Made by a program: the position numbers and the translations under genes. Under the pieces are notes generated by a model, which worked only from the letters and a program-made list of their open reading frames with translations, had not been told where the DNA came from and did no database searches. 64,000 nt of DNA from Aminobacter anthyllidis. Its GTDB lineage: Bacteria > Pseudomonadota > Alphaproteobacteria > Rhizobiales > Rhizobiaceae. The stretch covers positions 310,001 through 374,000 of the forward strand of contig NZ_JAFLWW010000002.1 in the NCBI RefSeq assembly GCF_018555685.1, written 5' to 3'. Of the stretch, positions 36,779 through 43,396 are shown piece after piece (the stretch's first letter is position 1; each line of letters opens with the position of its first letter).

Positions 36779-37444
36779 TTACGCCTCCGGCTCGCGCATG
36801 CGGTAACCCATACCGCGGACGGTTTCGATCATGTCGATTCCCATCTTCTTGCGAAGACGACCGACAAACACCTCAATAGTGTTGGAATCCCTGTCGAAAT
36901 CCTGGTCGTAAAGATGCTCGACCAGCTCGGTGCGGGAGACTACCTCGCCCATGTGATGCATGAGATAGGCCAGCAGGCGGAATTCATGCGAGGTGAGTTT
37001 CAGCGGAACGCCGTTGACGTCTGCCTTGGAGGCCTTGGTGTCGAGCCTGAGTGGGCCGCAAGACAGTTCAGACGATGCGTGACCGGCAGCGCGGCGGATC
37101 AGCGCTCTCACACGCGCCAGCACTTCCTCGATATGGAACGGCTTGGTCACGTAATCGTCGGCGCCGGCATCAATGCCGGCAACCTTGTCGCTCCAGCGGT
37201 CGCGCGCCGTCAACATGAGAACCGGCATCTTGCGGCCTTCGCGACGCCAGCGCTCGACGACGCTGATGCCGTCCATCTGCGGCAGGCCGATGTCGAGCAC
37301 TATGGCGTCATAAGGCTCTGTATCGCCGAGAAAATGGCCTTCCTCGCCATCAAAAGCCTTGTCGACGACATAGCCGGCGTCGGTCAACGCCTCGGAAATC
37401 TGGCGGTTCAGATCCTTGTCATCTTCGACGACGAGTATGCGCAT
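36779..37444 (-). CDS. feuP: OmpR-family response regulator FeuP
   Basis: 221 residues. Receiver MRILVVEDDKDLNRQISEAL with Asp in IVLDIGLPQMDGI, Lys in VTKPFHIEEV; winged-helix domain with LKLTSHEFRLLAYLMHHMGE, VSRTELVEHLYDQDFDRDSN and VFVGRLRKKMGIDMIETVRG. These segments agree with my memory of Sinorhizobium FeuP, whose regulon includes ndvA for cyclic beta-glucan export. Its stop is 10 bases before the feuQ CTG and its TAA is part of the feuQ ribosome site. Confidence 0.85.
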   Translation of the reverse strand: MRILVVEDDKDLNRQISEALTDAGYVVDKAFDGEEGHFLGDTEPYDAIVLDIGLPQMDGISVVERWRREGRKMPVLMLTARDRWSDKVAGIDAGADDYVTKPFHIEEVLARVRALIRRAAGHASSELSCGPLRLDTKASKADVNGVPLKLTSHEFRLLAYLMHHMGEVVSRTELVEHLYDQDFDRDSNTIEVFVGRLRKKMGIDMIETVRGMGYRMREPEA

Positions 37445-37509
37445 GCGGTTTGCGACCAATGGAAAGATGACGGAGATATAGGTGATTTCGGCTCTGCGGG
37501 AAATCCAGG

Positions 37510-37806
37510 TTAGTTGGCCGGCACGACAACCTCGACGCGACGCGGACGCTCGCCATCCTTTGCAGGCACCAGCACCACGATCACGCAGACCGACTGTCCA
37601 CCCTGATTGGATTCGGACGCCCGCGCCAATGTGCCGCCGTGCTGATCGGCCACCTGTTGGCCAATCGAGTAGCAATCCGCAGCAGCCACGAGGATCTCGC
37701 CACCTTCCGCAGAGCGCGTGGGCGCCGCTGCCGCCGAAGTGGCAAACAGGCCAGCCGCGCAAAGCGCGGTCACGGCAGGCCGGAATATGGAGCGAAGCGT
37801 TTTCAT
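37510..37806 (-). CDS. feuN: Small periplasmic protein, probable FeuN modulator of FeuQ
   Basis: 98 residues. Signal peptide (1-28, ending SAAAA), then a short domain with two Cys (Cys45 in ADCYSIGQQVA, Cys74 in QSVCVIVVLVPA) and a basic ERPRRVEVVV end. In Sinorhizobium a small periplasmic protein, FeuN, is encoded just upstream of feuPQ and restrains FeuQ; position, size and export match here. Direct sequence identity cannot be checked. It lies 65 bases upstream of feuP on the same strand with CAGGG before its ATG. Confidence 0.65.
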   Translation of the reverse strand: MKTLRSIFRPAVTALCAAGLFATSAAAAPTRSAEGGEILVAAADCYSIGQQVADQHGGTLARASESNQGGQSVCVIVVLVPAKDGERPRRVEVVVPAN

Positions 37807-37881
37807 ACCCTGATTTCTAATACAGCAGTGCTGAACGTGGAATGAACGATGAATTCATGCAAACGCCCTTGATGCCAAGCG

Positions 37882-38094
37882 CTAATTCTTGCCGATCCGC
37901 TGCCTGGCCGATACCCGACCGAAGATCGCAATCAGCCCTGAAAGCGCAGTGATCGCCTGCAGGAAGGTATCGGTCAACGCCGAATTGTCGACGCCGTCCA
38001 CAGGCAAGCCGGCAAGTCCGGCCACCCCCAGCAGCGTGGTCACCACGGAAGCCCAGATCGTGCGCGAGAGATACCAGGGTTTCAGGTTCAACAT
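37882..38094 (-). CDS. Holin-like small membrane protein at end of GTA remnant
   Basis: 70 residues with two hydrophobic segments (about 8-33 and 44-60) and a basic tail (RVSARQRIGKN), a holin-like layout. KPWYLSRTIWASVVTTLLG near the start resembles small proteins encoded beside GTA and phage tail genes. AAGGAT precedes the ATG at 38094. It follows the fusion gene by 36 bases on the same strand, so it is probably part of the same transcript. No direct evidence for lysis function. Confidence 0.65.
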   Translation of the reverse strand: MLNLKPWYLSRTIWASVVTTLLGVAGLAGLPVDGVDNSALTDTFLQAITALSGLIAIFGRVSARQRIGKN

Positions 38095-38130
38095 GTTCAG
38101 ATCCTTTTTGCGCGAAAGAGTTGCCTGCCC

Positions 38131-40551
38131 TCAAATCAGTGCGAGACGCTGCGCCGCCGGCAGCCCCCAGCCCGAGGCAACACTGAGCTGGCGAACGGTG
38201 ATCCCGACTTCCGCCGGCGGGGTGCCGAAGTCGGCTGCGATGTCGGAAGCCGCATAGGTCCAGGCCGGCATCGAAACCGTTGTCGACCGTACGACGGCGC
38301 CGCCGACGACTGCCACGTCTACGCGATATTCTTCGCGCTCCTCGCCAAGCGGGATGTCGCTCGATTGCCAACTGTCGGCGTCGACGCGCCCACGCCGGAT
38401 CCATGACAGCGAAAGATCGCCACCTGCGGTGCGCTTGCCCCTGAGATGCACGGGAGCGAGCGGCGTCAATGCTCGTTTGCCGCCAGTCTCCTGATGCGCC
38501 GAAAAGCTCGCACTTGAGAAATCGCCGCCCAGCGGGCCGACACGCCAGTTAAGCACAAGCCCCGCTTCGCCAGCCAACAATCCGGCGGGAACGACCGCTG
38601 AGTCGAGCACGACCACATCAGCACCAATGGCGGCGCCCGCAGCAGTCGCGTCTCCGGTTCCAAATTGGCCGCGCAGCAAATTGCGCAGACGCCAAACGCC
38701 AGGTGCCGTTTCCTCCGCCACCTCGAACTGCAGTACCTCCCACGCGCCGGCTGCAGAACGAACAGCGACATAATTGGCGCCATTGAGAAGCTGCAAGCGG
38801 CTGACGTTTGCCAGATCACCCTCATAGAGCTCGGCAATCAAGGCAGTTGTCTGGTCGAGCCTGCCTTGTACGCCGGGTAGGAGCGCAGCGGTCAGCCTGC
38901 CCATGTCCGCGCGGCGGCCGACAGACCCTCGCAGCATGAATCCGGTATCCTCAGGTGAAGCAAACAGCGCCTGGCTTCGCCAGGGCACATGTCTGACCGC
39001 AATGCGGAACTGGTCCTGAGATGAACCTGCTCCCATCATCGGCAGATCGAGGAACACCGCATGTGGCTGGCCAACGACAATCGATGTCGACGGCTCTACA
39101 CCGGGATTTGAAGAACGCCAGGGCGCTGGCGCGGCCCGCGCGATCTGCCTCGCGGTGACTTTGCGCACCAGGCCTTGTTCAATTCCGGTGACCAGGAATT
39201 CGGCACTGCTGCCCGAGGCCGGTACCTTGACCAAACTGCCCGGCACGATGTCAGCCCGCGGCTCGGCGAGGGCAAAGCTCAGTTGCTCCCGCTCCTGCCA
39301 GGTTCGCCTGATCCAGTCTTCGGCGAGCGCGCTTGCCTGCCCCGGCTCCAGCATGCCCGGAAACGAAATCGTATGCTGTCGGCTGTTGCTGGCAGCAACT
39401 CGCGTGCTCCTGGCCGACGCTGACTGATAGTCATTGGCAGGATCGCCAAAGCTGACCAGCGCCTCTGCCGGCAAGTCATGATCGGGCGTGCGAACGGTTT
39501 CGACGACGGCGCTTTCGCCGTCGAATGCCAGCTCGATCAGTTCGACAGCCGCCTCTTGCGATGCCGCCGCCTGCTGGAAAACGAGCCCACCCGGCACCTG
39601 GCATGCAGAGAGGCCAAACAGGTCGATCAGCGGTTCGAGTGCGGCCCGCGCCGAGCTGGGGTCGGCGATTACGTAGCCGCTCACGGTGTCTTCGACGCCT
39701 GCCACATCCGCTGCCGGCAAACCGTGATCCGCAAGTATCTCATTGATGAGATCAGACAGGGACGGTGCATTGAGACGACCGTTCAGCCAATGGCCTCTAT
39801 GCCAGCCTGCGCTATCCGACCAGACTTTCGACTGCAGCGGAAAGGCAGGATAAGGCCGTGCGTCCCATGCCCAGACATAGCTGCGCGCGACGTCCACCAT
39901 ACGCCCGCCATAGATCGGCGAGATCGGATTGCCCGTCTCCTGGAAGCCGGCGGCGGCAGGATCCCAGTGCAAGGCATGCGCCTCCAGCAGACGCCGCGGG
40001 GCAATGTCCGACCGCCCCCCGTTCGAGAAACAAGGTGTCGCATCCTCGGTCGATTTGGCATCCGGAAACATGTTGGGCTGGTTCGGCCCCTTGTCGACGG
40101 CCGGGCAGCCAAGCTCATCGCACCAAGCCGGCTGAAACTGCGGCCCGCGCAGGCTGTCTGGATCTTCGGAGGAAAAAATCTGCGCCACGGCGCCGCTGTC
40201 CCAGACCAGCCTCTTGCGACTGGGTTCGAAACGTGGCCGGTCGTGGCGCGAAATCGTAGCGATTCCGGACGGTCCCTCGATCATCACCTCGCGGACATCG
40301 GCCAAAGTCTCGCCGACCAGGGCTATGGGTGAATGTCGCCTGGTCGCGAAGGGAGAAAACCCGCGCACCATGCTGTTGACCCATTCAGCCCCGAGCCTGG
40401 TCTTGCCAGCGCCACGTCCGCCGACCACGAGCCACGTCGCTGGCTTCTGTCCAAGCGGGTATTGCGCGATGCGCGCGAATTGAAACCACTCCAGCGCGAC
40501 AAGGCGCCGTTCACGCTCTGTCAGCTTCTCCTGCGCCCAGCACCCGAGCAT
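38131..40551 (-). CDS. Chimeric GTA protein: large terminase (g2) ATPase half fused to host-specificity protein (g15) C-terminal half
   Basis: 806 residues. Residues 1 to about 148 are a TerL N-terminus: TWLVVGGRGAGKTRLGAEWV (Walker A), IALVGETLADVREVMIEGPS, SSEDPDSLRGPQF and Walker B WCDE. From about residue 149 the sequence is g15: CPAVDKGPNQPNMF, PIYGGRMVDVARSYVWAWDA, RPYPAFPLQSKVWSD, GHWLNGRL, then tail domains to the end. The terminase nuclease domain and most of the g15 TIM barrel are missing. The start at 40551 begins MLGCWAQEKLTERER; a longer start at 40614 is possible. The frame is fully open with normal codon use. Cannot act as a packaging terminase; any role is unknown. Confidence 0.85.
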   Translation of the reverse strand: MLGCWAQEKLTERERRLVALEWFQFARIAQYPLGQKPATWLVVGGRGAGKTRLGAEWVNSMVRGFSPFATRRHSPIALVGETLADVREVMIEGPSGIATISRHDRPRFEPSRKRLVWDSGAVAQIFSSEDPDSLRGPQFQPAWCDELGCPAVDKGPNQPNMFPDAKSTEDATPCFSNGGRSDIAPRRLLEAHALHWDPAAAGFQETGNPISPIYGGRMVDVARSYVWAWDARPYPAFPLQSKVWSDSAGWHRGHWLNGRLNAPSLSDLINEILADHGLPAADVAGVEDTVSGYVIADPSSARAALEPLIDLFGLSACQVPGGLVFQQAAASQEAAVELIELAFDGESAVVETVRTPDHDLPAEALVSFGDPANDYQSASARSTRVAASNSRQHTISFPGMLEPGQASALAEDWIRRTWQEREQLSFALAEPRADIVPGSLVKVPASGSSAEFLVTGIEQGLVRKVTARQIARAAPAPWRSSNPGVEPSTSIVVGQPHAVFLDLPMMGAGSSQDQFRIAVRHVPWRSQALFASPEDTGFMLRGSVGRRADMGRLTAALLPGVQGRLDQTTALIAELYEGDLANVSRLQLLNGANYVAVRSAAGAWEVLQFEVAEETAPGVWRLRNLLRGQFGTGDATAAGAAIGADVVVLDSAVVPAGLLAGEAGLVLNWRVGPLGGDFSSASFSAHQETGGKRALTPLAPVHLRGKRTAGGDLSLSWIRRGRVDADSWQSSDIPLGEEREEYRVDVAVVGGAVVRSTTVSMPAWTYAASDIAADFGTPPAEVGITVRQLSVASGWGLPAAQRLALI

Positions 40552-40978
40552 AGTCTTGAGCAAGCTCGATGATGCGTCGGTCGATCCTTGCAAGCACGTC
40601 TGCCATTTCTGCATCTCGGTTCGTCTGGCTCACTTTCGCGCGGTCGCCCCCTCGCATCAGTTCGCTGATCTTTTCGACCGTCCTGACGATCGAGCCGACC
40701 ATGTCGACCTGGCCCTTGTCGAAACCGCCTTCGTTTTCGAGGCGCAGCGTTTCGACCTGCCCGACCAGGGAATCTGCCAGCCGTGCCAACCGGTCGTCGA
40801 TGTCCTCGCCTACCGAAGAAACCCACCCTTCCCGCAGGATGCGTCTTTCAATCGAAGCCACGGCATAGCCGCTCGCCACCGACAAAAGCCCGACATCGAC
40901 AGCGCCGCCTTCAAAAAGCGCGCGCACTGCCTGCCTTCGCTCGTTCGCTTTCGCGACCAACGAAACCTCCATATTCAT
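40511..40978 (-). CDS. GTA g1-like protein, putative small terminase
   Basis: 155 residues, helical. Begins with a basic N-terminus and a short helix-turn-helix-like region (VDVGLLSVASGYAVASIERR), then EDIDDRLARLADSLVGQVETL, IVRTVEKISELMRGGDR and DRRIIELAQDYARVLG. Size, position directly before the terminase and overlap with its start (40511-40551) match g1 of RcGTA-like clusters. It looks intact. Without a complete large terminase its packaging role is lost. Confidence 0.75.
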   Translation of the reverse strand: MNMEVSLVAKANERRQAVRALFEGGAVDVGLLSVASGYAVASIERRILREGWVSSVGEDIDDRLARLADSLVGQVETLRLENEGGFDKGQVDMVGSIVRTVEKISELMRGGDRAKVSQTNRDAEMADVLARIDRRIIELAQDYARVLGAGEADRA

Positions 40979-41242
40979 GATTTCAGGGATTTGCCTGTCA
41001 GTGCCGCGCCGTTGGCTACACTTCTTCGACGATAGCCAGATACTATCAAAGCACCGTCACGCCGTCAAGAATATATTCCTATGTCAGCGTCTTTTTTCTA
41101 ATCCAACGGTGTGTCCAACTTGCTCTTGTCGCGGCAACAAAAATCGGTGACAAGTCGGACATGGGCCGAGGGACGCGTGCCCTGAATTCGCCTGCAAAAG
41201 TGTTTTGGTATAAGCTGCAGTCACGCGCCGGGCTCGTCTCGA

Positions 41243-43396
41243 ATGGAAAATCCCATCGCACCACGCAAGAAGAGAGGCCGCATCGCGGCCGGCCTGCTGG
41301 CGCTTGATGCCTGGCTCGACTCCTCTTTGTATGAACTCCGCTTCAGGGCGCAGCAGTTCTGGGAAAGCGCGACAATCTTCTTCCGCCGCTTCCGCGTCAA
41401 AGGCTGGCGTCGCGGCGTCATCGAGGTCCTGAGCGAATCCTTCACCATGGCTGCCGGCGGCTCGGTGGTGATGCTGGCGCTCGCCATGCCGGCATTCCAG
41501 GAAACCACCGGCAACTGGCGCAACCAGGACGACTTCGCCGTCACCTTCCTTGACCGCTACGGCAACGAGATCGGCCAGCGCGGCATCATCCAGCGCGACT
41601 CGGTTCCGGTGGACGAGATGCCGGACCACGTCATCAAGGCCGTGCTGGCGACCGAAGACCGGCGCTTCTTCGAACACTACGGCATCGATTTTCTTGGCCT
41701 GATACGCGCCATGTCGGAAAACGTCCGCGCCAACTCCGTTGTCCAGGGCGGTTCGAGCCTCACCCAGCAGCTGGCCAAGAACCTGTTTCTCACCAACGAA
41801 CGCACGGTCGAGCGCAAGGTCAAGGAAGCGTTCCTGTCCATCTGGCTCGAATCGAACCTGTCGAAGAAAGAGATCCTGCAGCTCTACCTCGACCGCGCCT
41901 ACATGGGCGGTGGCACGTTCGGCATCGCCGCGGCAGCCGACTTCTACTTCGGCAAGCAGGTCAAGGACCTCAACCTAGCCGAAGCGGCGATGCTCGCCGG
42001 CCTGTTCAAGGCTCCGACCAAATATGCGCCCCACATCAACCTTCCCGCCGCGCGCGCCCGCGCCAACATCGTGCTCAGCAATCTTGTGCAGGCGGGTTTC
42101 ATGACCGAAGGTCAGGTGCTGTCGGCGCGGCTGCATCCCGCCGACATCGTTGACCGCGGCGACCGCAAGAGCCCCGACTACTTCCTCGACTGGGCCTTTG
42201 ACGAGGTCAAGAAGATCGCGGCGAAGTCCGGCATCCACTCGCTTGTCGCCCGCACCACAATCGACATGAACATCCAGAAGGCCGCTGAAGAGTCGGTCGA
42301 ATTCCACCTGCGCCAGTTCGGAAAGGAATATCACGTCACCGAAGGCGCGGTGGTCGTCATCGAGACGAATGGAGCGGTTCGCGCCATTGTCGGCGGCCGC
42401 GACTATGGTGCCAGCCAATTCAACCGCGCCACGAGAGCCCAGCGCCAGACCGGCTCGTCGTTCAAGCCGTATGTCTATGCAACGGCTATGGAAAACGGCT
42501 TCAAGCCTGAATCGGTCATCTCGGATGGGCCGATCAGTTGGGGTGCCTGGTCGCCAAAGAACTATACCCGCGGCTATTCGGGCCGAATGACGCTTTCGAC
42601 GGCGCTGATCAAGTCGATCAACACCGTACCCGTGCGCCTTGCCAAGGACCACCTGTCGATCCCGCCGATCAAGGCGATGGCCGAAGCGATGGGCGTCGAA
42701 TCTCCCGTCAGCTCGCACAAGACGATGGTGCTCGGCACTTCAGGCCTGACGGTCATGGATCAGGCGACCGGCTACAGCGTGCTGGCGCAGGACGGCATCG
42801 TTGGCACCCGCCACGGCATCACCCAGCTCGTCACCCATTCCGGCCAGCTCATCTACGACTACAGCAAGGATGCACCGCCGCCGCACCGCGTGCTGTCCGA
42901 GCAGGCTGTCGCTTCGATGAACTCGATCATGGTGCAGATCCCCGAGGTCGGAACGGCGCGCAAGGCCGCTCTTCCCAGCATCCGCTCTGCTGGCAAGACA
43001 GGAACCACGCAGTCCTACCGCGACGCGTGGTACATCGGTTATACGGGCAACTACACTGCCGCTGTATGGCTCGGTAACGACGACTTCTCGACTACCAACA
43101 ACATGACTGGCGGCTCGCTTCCGGCCATGGTGTGGCAACGCTTCATGGCCTACGCGCACCAAAACATCGACCTGAAGCCGATCCCCGGCATCAGGGATCC
43201 CTACGTCGATCCGGCCGCCATCGCCAAGGCCGAGGAAGCAGCCAAGAACGGGCCGCAGCAGGCGGTGGACACATCCGATCGTCCGCCGGTCCTTTCCAGC
43301 ACGACCACGCGTGCACTGCGCGAAATCGCCGACGTCTTCCACAAGGCGCCTGCGATCGCAGCACCGCCGGAACCCGAGACGCTGTCTGCGCTGTGA
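41243..43396 (+). CDS. Class A penicillin-binding protein (PBP1A family)
   Basis: 717 residues. Basic cytoplasmic start, one membrane helix (about 65-83), glycosyltransferase family 51 domain with catalytic Glu138 in LATEDRRFFEHYGID and GGSSLTQQLAKNLFL, then the transpeptidase domain with Ser405 (TGSSFKPY), SIN (458-460) and KTGTT (585-589). Polymerises and crosslinks peptidoglycan at the inner membrane. The C-terminal tail is Pro/Ala-rich. A TATAAG box lies about 30 bases upstream. Confidence 0.94.
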   Translation: MENPIAPRKKRGRIAAGLLALDAWLDSSLYELRFRAQQFWESATIFFRRFRVKGWRRGVIEVLSESFTMAAGGSVVMLALAMPAFQETTGNWRNQDDFAVTFLDRYGNEIGQRGIIQRDSVPVDEMPDHVIKAVLATEDRRFFEHYGIDFLGLIRAMSENVRANSVVQGGSSLTQQLAKNLFLTNERTVERKVKEAFLSIWLESNLSKKEILQLYLDRAYMGGGTFGIAAAADFYFGKQVKDLNLAEAAMLAGLFKAPTKYAPHINLPAARARANIVLSNLVQAGFMTEGQVLSARLHPADIVDRGDRKSPDYFLDWAFDEVKKIAAKSGIHSLVARTTIDMNIQKAAEESVEFHLRQFGKEYHVTEGAVVVIETNGAVRAIVGGRDYGASQFNRATRAQRQTGSSFKPYVYATAMENGFKPESVISDGPISWGAWSPKNYTRGYSGRMTLSTALIKSINTVPVRLAKDHLSIPPIKAMAEAMGVESPVSSHKTMVLGTSGLTVMDQATGYSVLAQDGIVGTRHGITQLVTHSGQLIYDYSKDAPPPHRVLSEQAVASMNSIMVQIPEVGTARKAALPSIRSAGKTGTTQSYRDAWYIGYTGNYTAAVWLGNDDFSTTNNMTGGSLPAMVWQRFMAYAHQNIDLKPIPGIRDPYVDPAAIAKAEEAAKNGPQQAVDTSDRPPVLSSTTTRALREIADVFHKAPAIAAPPEPETLSAL

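Follow-up and report, generated by a model that had tools for sequence, protein, structure and literature searches.

The 64,000-nucleotide stretch of Aminobacter anthyllidis DNA analyzed here (the window) carries a gene that is an in-frame chimera of two genes of an RcGTA-like gene transfer agent (GTA), the beginning of the large terminase gene g2 and the end of the tail gene g15. The genes between them, g3-g14, have been lost, and the same joint, which we call J1, has formed repeatedly at the same codon in several genera. The in-frame joint occurs in at least eight other genera, where it was apparently made separately, and the leftover hybrid gene may therefore be worth something to the cell. 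The explanation that we favor, with about even confidence, is that the locus is a GTA-null allele that has formed time and again and in which selection still acts on the g15 hub half.

The fused gene is a single continuous open reading frame. A first-pass annotation, made from the letters of the window and their translations, had described it as an uninterrupted gene of 806 codons at 38131-40551. The gene is indeed uninterrupted, but it is read from the minus strand, starting at 40614 and ending at 38131, and encodes 827 residues; the 806-residue product arises only from an internal ATG at 40551, and frame 1 of the plus strand is interrupted by stops over the same coordinates. The central claim of that annotation, an in-frame g2::g15 chimera, holds, since Pfam and NCBIfam place an N-terminal part of g2 and a C-terminal part of g15 in the one protein. 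The Pfam matches are Terminase_6N (fused residues 64-168), GTA_TIM (158-259, covering only positions 204-299 of the 299 in the profile), Phage-tail_3 (318-479) and Rcc01698_C (569-668), and the PHROGs family tail protein 4271 covers residues 150-824. The NCBIfam profile GTA_megatron (NF048004) is matched over positions 639-1298 of 1299; the score of 647.6 bits does not reach the curated cut-off, which is 800 bits.

On the terminase side, the Walker A (GGRGAGKT) and Walker B (WCDE) motifs are present at aligned positions and the nuclease is gone, as had been read from the sequence. The complete g2 ATPase and its C-terminal nuclease are absent: the Terminase_6N match ends at position 105 of the 215 in the profile, and similarity to g2, whose intact open frame is 452 aa, stops at the joint. 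The second half begins at the "E-LGCPAVDKGPNQPN" motif of the g15/megatron TIM barrel and runs to the C-terminus, and it contains the hub domains (Phage-tail_3 and Rcc01698_C) without a complete TIM barrel. Both parents have an E-L-G-like sequence on their side of the join, in agreement with the first description. The open frame overlapping the start of the fused gene has no Pfam match and is named g1, the small terminase, by its position. Downstream of the fused gene lies a 70-aa frame that we take, by eye, to be holin-like.

Table 1 Features of the fused locus, in coordinates of the window.
Feature	Coordinates	Strand	Basis
Flanking response-regulator gene, PhoP/ChvI-like by eye	36779..37495	-	Matched beside the fused gene in 9/9 fused loci and in 4 cluster-less loci
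70-aa ORF, also next after g15 in intact relative L020	37882..38094	-	Comparison of loci
Fused g2::g15 ORF	38131..40614	-	827 aa (806 aa from ATG at 40551); ORF list, Pfam, PHROGs, NCBIfam
g15 half: last third of GTA_TIM barrel and hub/tail-tip domains to the natural C-terminus	38131..40113	-	Pfam, PHROGs, NCBIfam; AlphaFold2; Foldseek
Joint J1: Walker B Asp-Glu codons GAT GAG, then CTT GGC TGC of the g15 motif	40112..40119	-	blastn, codon comparison
g2 half: GTA large terminase residues 1-167, start of ATPase domain up to WCDE	40114..40614	-	Pfam Terminase_6N 64-168; matches intact g2 in five congeneric genomes
Walker A GGRGAGKT, residues 65-72	40399..40422	-	GGRG[AS]GKT in 17/17 aligned fused genes
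g1 (small-terminase position), open, overlapping the fused gene start	40511..40978	-	ORF at the matching place upstream of g2 in relatives
Upstream flank of the GTA site: gene that by eye resembles a penicillin-binding transglycosylase	41243..43396	+	Opposite-strand frames matched at the equivalent place in 7/9 fused loci and in L041-L044

The comparison with relatives that the first-pass annotation had called for was run on 10 genomes of the genus, that of the window included. Five of the others have g2 (an open frame of 452 aa) and g15 (1303-1323 aa) as separate genes; the remaining four gave no match to the fused gene. In these four (G002, G003, G004 and G006; loci L041-L044, whose site corresponds to 37500-41200 of the window) the cluster is missing between the same flanks, and a remnant of the small downstream ORF is found in three of them. 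Aligned by blastn to the five intact congeneric clusters, the fused gene switches from g2 to g15 at about 40112-40116, close to the position near 40110 first proposed. The two joint sites lie 11,344-11,459 bases apart in those five genomes, in line with the predicted loss of about 11-12 kb. The locus of the window shows no match to the portal, protease, capsid and tail genes g3-g14 that a functional RcGTA-like cluster has. In the window's genome as a whole, Phage_capsid has no match above the family cut-off and one below it, and a search with the 11.4 kb that lie between the two sites in the intact relative G008 gave nothing beyond one 58-base match.

These results confirm that the in-frame chimera is genuine and that g3-g14, about 11.4 kb, were lost. 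We conclude that the chimera is not a product of chance, because it forms one continuous frame, is present in one copy in the 6.71-Mb genome and has an identical joint in other species. The genome of the window is a 30-contig draft, and such an assembly might in principle have dropped g3-g14 between the two halves. We regard this collapse as extremely improbable: an artefact is ruled out by the absence of the lost segment from elsewhere in the genome and by four single-contig genomes that carry J1 (G042, G806, G748 and G989). Also, the run of bases shared at the J1 site is far shorter than the k-mers usually used in assembly.

The fusion is not a single oddity: J1 is present in at least 15 further genomes. 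When the fused protein was searched against 394 genomes of the family, at least eight further genomes gave one open match across both parts (G017, G172, G094, G042, G380, G013, G149 and G248). Seven of them share J1, and G248 is cut nearby (WCD|VFFDPKS), so that at least 8 of the 394 genomes carry J1 with that of the window (G000) included. G109 appears in this search as g15 only and has a later part of g2 joined in frame to g15. A junction profile (A1) run against 397 genomes of the order gave, among the matches listed, G610, G645 and G748, all of genus g114 in another family. The full list of 75 genomes of that genus contains J1 in seven (G610, G645, G806, G773, G748, G814 and G813), the copy in G813 sitting at a contig end. 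The class search (385 genomes) gave one more open spanning match in G989, from another order, which has J1 followed by a later frameshift. In total, J1 is found in at least 16 genomes; the nine genera to which they belong are g114, g389 and seven of the first family. The family and order counts are lower bounds from the genomes drawn.

Nine of the fused loci come from the first family (eight with J1, and G248): the response-regulator gene adjoins in all nine, the upstream flank gene is common to seven, and g3-g14 have no match at any. A second joint, J2, in which the same g2 codon is joined to an earlier g15 site, was found in G828 and G783 (L115 and L116); the resulting frames of 1306 and 1325 aa enter g15 near its N-terminus. 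When viral contigs were scanned with the junction (best 80 of 135 relatives) and with A1 (best 80 of 360), three of the rows listed ran well past the joint from the g2 side (L205, L206 and L287), and the two that were read, L205 and L287, are ordinary clusters with a g2 of 403 aa and a g15 of 1307 aa. We note that IMG/VR files GTA clusters as viral contigs. One example is 2919806135_000002 (L140, L288), which matches the window's g15 half at 87% on the amino acid level, compared with up to 76% for congeneric genomes. Near position 1672768 of contig C1 of G890, an open frame of 32,612 aa was reported around a g15 match, perhaps reflecting a masked or odd stretch.

To place the fused genes among intact ones, trees were built from 26 rows for the g2 half and from 36 rows for the g15 half, leaving out G109 and G989. 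On both trees the fused genes fall beside intact genes of their own genus where such rows were included; there were no intact congeneric rows for G017, G013 and G149. In the first family, the fused label (J1 and G248) requires nine changes on the g15 tree, all nine forced by well-supported branches, and eight on the g2 tree, of which five are forced. In genus g114 (J1 and J2) it requires seven changes on the g2 tree and eight on the g15 tree, with five forced in each; a label change could in principle also be a regain of the cluster, which needs the import of 11 kb. A single J1 clade was rejected by the AU test in both sets (p 1.6e-77 and 1.5e-5), the groups having been named after the trees were seen, and a single J2 clade of G828 and G783 was rejected as well. 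A clade of G172 and G094 was rejected at p 0.012 on the g15 tree, yet the two pair on the g2 tree, and a clade of G773, G748 and G813 was not rejected (p 0.078). As the trees of both halves reject one clade, J1 apparently arose separately in about nine genera. A single ancestral fusion is rejected by the tree changes together with the AU test.

The codons at the joint differ among lineages, and in G610 and G645 both sides show the lineage's own codons. Between G172 and G094 the joint hardly differs. The joint codons within genus g86, and those of G773, G748 and G814, resemble one another more than draws of intact genes do, which suggests that some of the 16 J1 genomes may share one event.

One ancient fusion allele might instead have been spread by recombination, with the flanks later made local; a route would be GTA particles, which could take up an allele of 2.5 kb and would be too small for the 14-kb cluster. 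This would explain the identical joints, and J2, too, is found twice. In 16 of 25 comparisons over the ten codons next to the joint, the nearest of the other fused genes is closer than the sister gene, and third positions on the g2 side are slightly more alike among fused rows (0.65 vs 0.57). Moreover, no intact draw is as close in eight of the 25 comparisons (G172, G094 and G773 on both sides, G748 and G814 on the g15 side). In the other 17, however, intact rows of other species are equally close in 35-100% of draws, and the excess likeness is in keeping with sharing within one genus. Fused rows from different genera show no increase in mean similarity near the joint, the g15 side having been computed without G813. 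The lineage-specific codons of G610 and G645 and the rejection of one clade by the trees also speak against a traveling allele, as does the finding that none of the 156 matching phage records and none of the 14 plasmid records covers 80% of the junction query. We therefore consider this explanation improbable. Spread between genera is not supported, intact rows being as close in 17 of 25 comparisons; within a genus one allele may have spread.

Why the deletion should fall at the same place was approached through the bases shared by the two sites. The first-pass annotation had suggested that short homology guided the deletion, which is possible, but the shared runs of 2-10 nt found at the J1 sites of 29 intact loci cannot alone explain the site. 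These 29 were taken from 36 loci after dropping seven in which the motif was not found, and an earlier count on 13 loci agrees. The run is 2-6 nt in 28 of the 29. Since these 28 loci each have at least 1,813 g2 x g15 position pairs with runs as long or longer, homology cannot alone pick J1. In the remaining locus, G186, the run is 10 nt and only 18 pairs are as good. The Glu codon at the joint is GAA in 11 of 14 fused genes and in 11 of 38 intact g2 genes (p 0.003), an enrichment expected if longer shared runs favor the deletion, so that homology seems to help. Microhomology alone was thus rejected as an explanation of J1.

Few other g2/g15 joints were found in these genomes: J2 in two of them, and those of G248 and G109. 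The deletions ending in g15 in G248, G109 and G794 are in frame and open, that of G794 (L320, 7638-9464) being a capsid::g15 joint in one open frame that occurs once. In G829 and G400, protease and g15 have a common frame, but one and three stops, respectively, precede the joint, and in G800, G545 and G290 the deletion puts g15 in another frame. The other GTA deletions of genus g114 have joints of their own. Because the frames of these deletions are mixed, in-frame joining is no general rule of GTA decay, and a fixed in-frame rule for all GTA deletions was looked for and not found. J1 is special in this respect: neither its in-frame state nor its fixed joint is a general rule of GTA decay. As a separate observation, tblastn finds no more of g15 than roughly its last 120 residues in G545 (L314), G400 (L317) and G800 (L319), next to portal or protease sequence and with the ends close together. 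This is perhaps another favored end, or merely where similarity begins.

To assess selection, we compared triples of a fused gene, a sister intact gene and an outgroup, and counted the codons at which one member differs from two that are alike. For the g15 half (14 triples), fused genes had 720 synonymous and 317 nonsynonymous changes and intact genes 699 and 355 (p 0.13); the p-values are rough because intact rows were reused between triples, and the counts are indications, part of each branch predating the fusion. For the g2 half, counted in 11 of the 14 triples (three lacked a row), fused genes had 126 synonymous and 68 nonsynonymous changes against 152 and 40 in intact genes (p 0.002), and for g1, counted in nine of ten triples, 53 and 66 against 62 and 34 (p 0.004). 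Over the nine lineages common to all three, the odds of nonsynonymous change in fused relative to intact genes were 2.27 for g1, 1.93 for the g2 half and 0.87 for the g15 half, the contrast with the g15 half having p 0.0016 for g1 and p 0.0043 for the g2 half. This contrast holds when G806 is left out, alone or with G748 or G814 (p 0.0007-0.028). Without G806, the excess of the g2 half alone is not significant (OR 1.54, z 1.51) and the g15 half is tighter in fused lineages (OR 0.64, z -3.39), so that the contrast then rests on the latter. Both halves are relaxed in G806 and G017. These counts indicate that the g15 half is under selection in the fused lineages. The open frame had first been explained as recent or kept by selection, and the halves turn out to differ: the g15 half looks kept and the g2 half does not. 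Most of the fusions may be too young for visible decay.

The main rival to selection is a mutational hot spot followed by neutral survival, in which some physical property makes these two sites recombine with unusual frequency and the chimera is a young relic that does no harm. Its occurrence in at least 16 genomes with the same joint and the enrichment of GAA in fused genes are consistent with such a hot spot, as is the 10-nt run with 18 equally good pairs in G186, one of the 29 intact loci. The frameshifted J1 gene of G989 is already broken, which counts against our preferred explanation, and the relaxation of both halves in G806 and G017 likewise fits a neutral remnant. A hot spot would not readily account for the other 28 intact loci with their 2-6 nt runs and at least 1,813 pairs as long or longer, for the scarcity of other g2/g15 joints, or for relaxation that affects g1 and the g2 half and spares the g15 half. 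We consider it a real possibility, though probably not the right one.

The fold of the fused protein was predicted by AlphaFold2 from an alignment of 45 rows, none of them another fused protein, so that a chimeric fold could be missed. The model has a mean pLDDT of 69.6 and a pTM of 0.44. Values below 50 are found in most of residues 1-60, at 67-72 within Walker A, at 160-213 and 242-282, and in short later dips such as 495-512, and from residue 285 onward most ten-residue blocks have values of 67-94. The model thus predicts a disordered joint and mostly folded g15 hub domains. Foldseek matched the model to the baseplate of phage R4C (8gtc_M, E 1.3e-36) and to RcGTA (6tba_8A, 1.7e-12).

These results bear on the earlier statement that the product keeps an ATPase site. 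The Walker motifs are there, but the ATPase fold is cut off after its first half, and the joint is without order in the AlphaFold2 model. A new ATP-using tail protein with both halves working together would be in keeping with the conservation of Walker A and the Walker-B Asp in 17 of 17 fused genes and of the Walker-B Glu in 16 of 17. With the ATPase fold only half present, pLDDT below 50 at 160-213, at 242-282 and at 67-72 in Walker A, and the g2 half relaxed over nine lineages, we find such a protein very unlikely.

Taken together, the locus is what remains of a decayed gene transfer agent of the RcGTA type. A single deletion removed about 11.4 kb with g3-g14, its ends lying inside g2 (past the Walker-B Asp-Glu) and inside g15 (at the TIM-barrel Glu), and left g1 and one in-frame chimeric gene. 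We infer that such deletions form at a short shared W-x-x-E-[L/I]-G patch, with microhomology of a few nt up to about 10, and that they are favored as GTA-null 'non-producer' alleles. The chimera would then survive through a useful C-terminal half of g15 (about residues 285-827) translated from the g2 start, and the g2 half would be mainly a 5' leader with a non-working ATPase fragment. As a guess, the hub half might bind the cell-surface polysaccharide that GTA tails recognize. A stronger version is parallel gene birth by deletion from decaying domesticated phages, in which the same terminase-tail chimera formed at one codon, separately in about nine genera of three families, as a new host gene and was kept for the benefit of the hub half to GTA non-producers; we put this forward tentatively, with less than even confidence.

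The persistence of GTAs is a puzzle, since non-producers should win. A recurrent non-producer allele that is marked by its joint provides natural replicates, from which the rate of producer loss, its duration and the later usefulness of parts of the machine could be read. If selection lies behind the recurring joint, one and the same chimeric gene has evolved many times, which is rare; if mutation does, a hitherto unrecognized deletion hot spot is indicated. The words 'fusion' and 'fused' do not occur in the text of PMC7947584, PMC9836097 or PMC10883770, and a g2::g15 fusion is not named in the titles or abstract openings among the best matches of the open-license literature.

Three known systems can be compared with the fused locus. 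The RcGTA-like head-tail cluster of Alphaproteobacteria (g1-g15) has the same end genes and, in the intact clusters of relatives, the same flanks, whereas g3-g14 are gone from the fused locus, and therefore no particle should be made. Pseudogenized and lost GTA clusters, discussed as possible 'cheater' lineages in PMC10883770, resemble the fused locus in that production is lost in scattered lineages; the discussion there concerns pseudogenization and complete loss, and the fused locus is an in-frame chimera instead. The GTA megatron or baseplate hub (NF048004; 8gtc_M; RcGTA 6tba) is like the C-terminal half of the fused protein in both sequence and predicted fold, and the fused gene differs from it in having a terminase fragment in place of about the first 634 residues, which comprise most of the TIM barrel.
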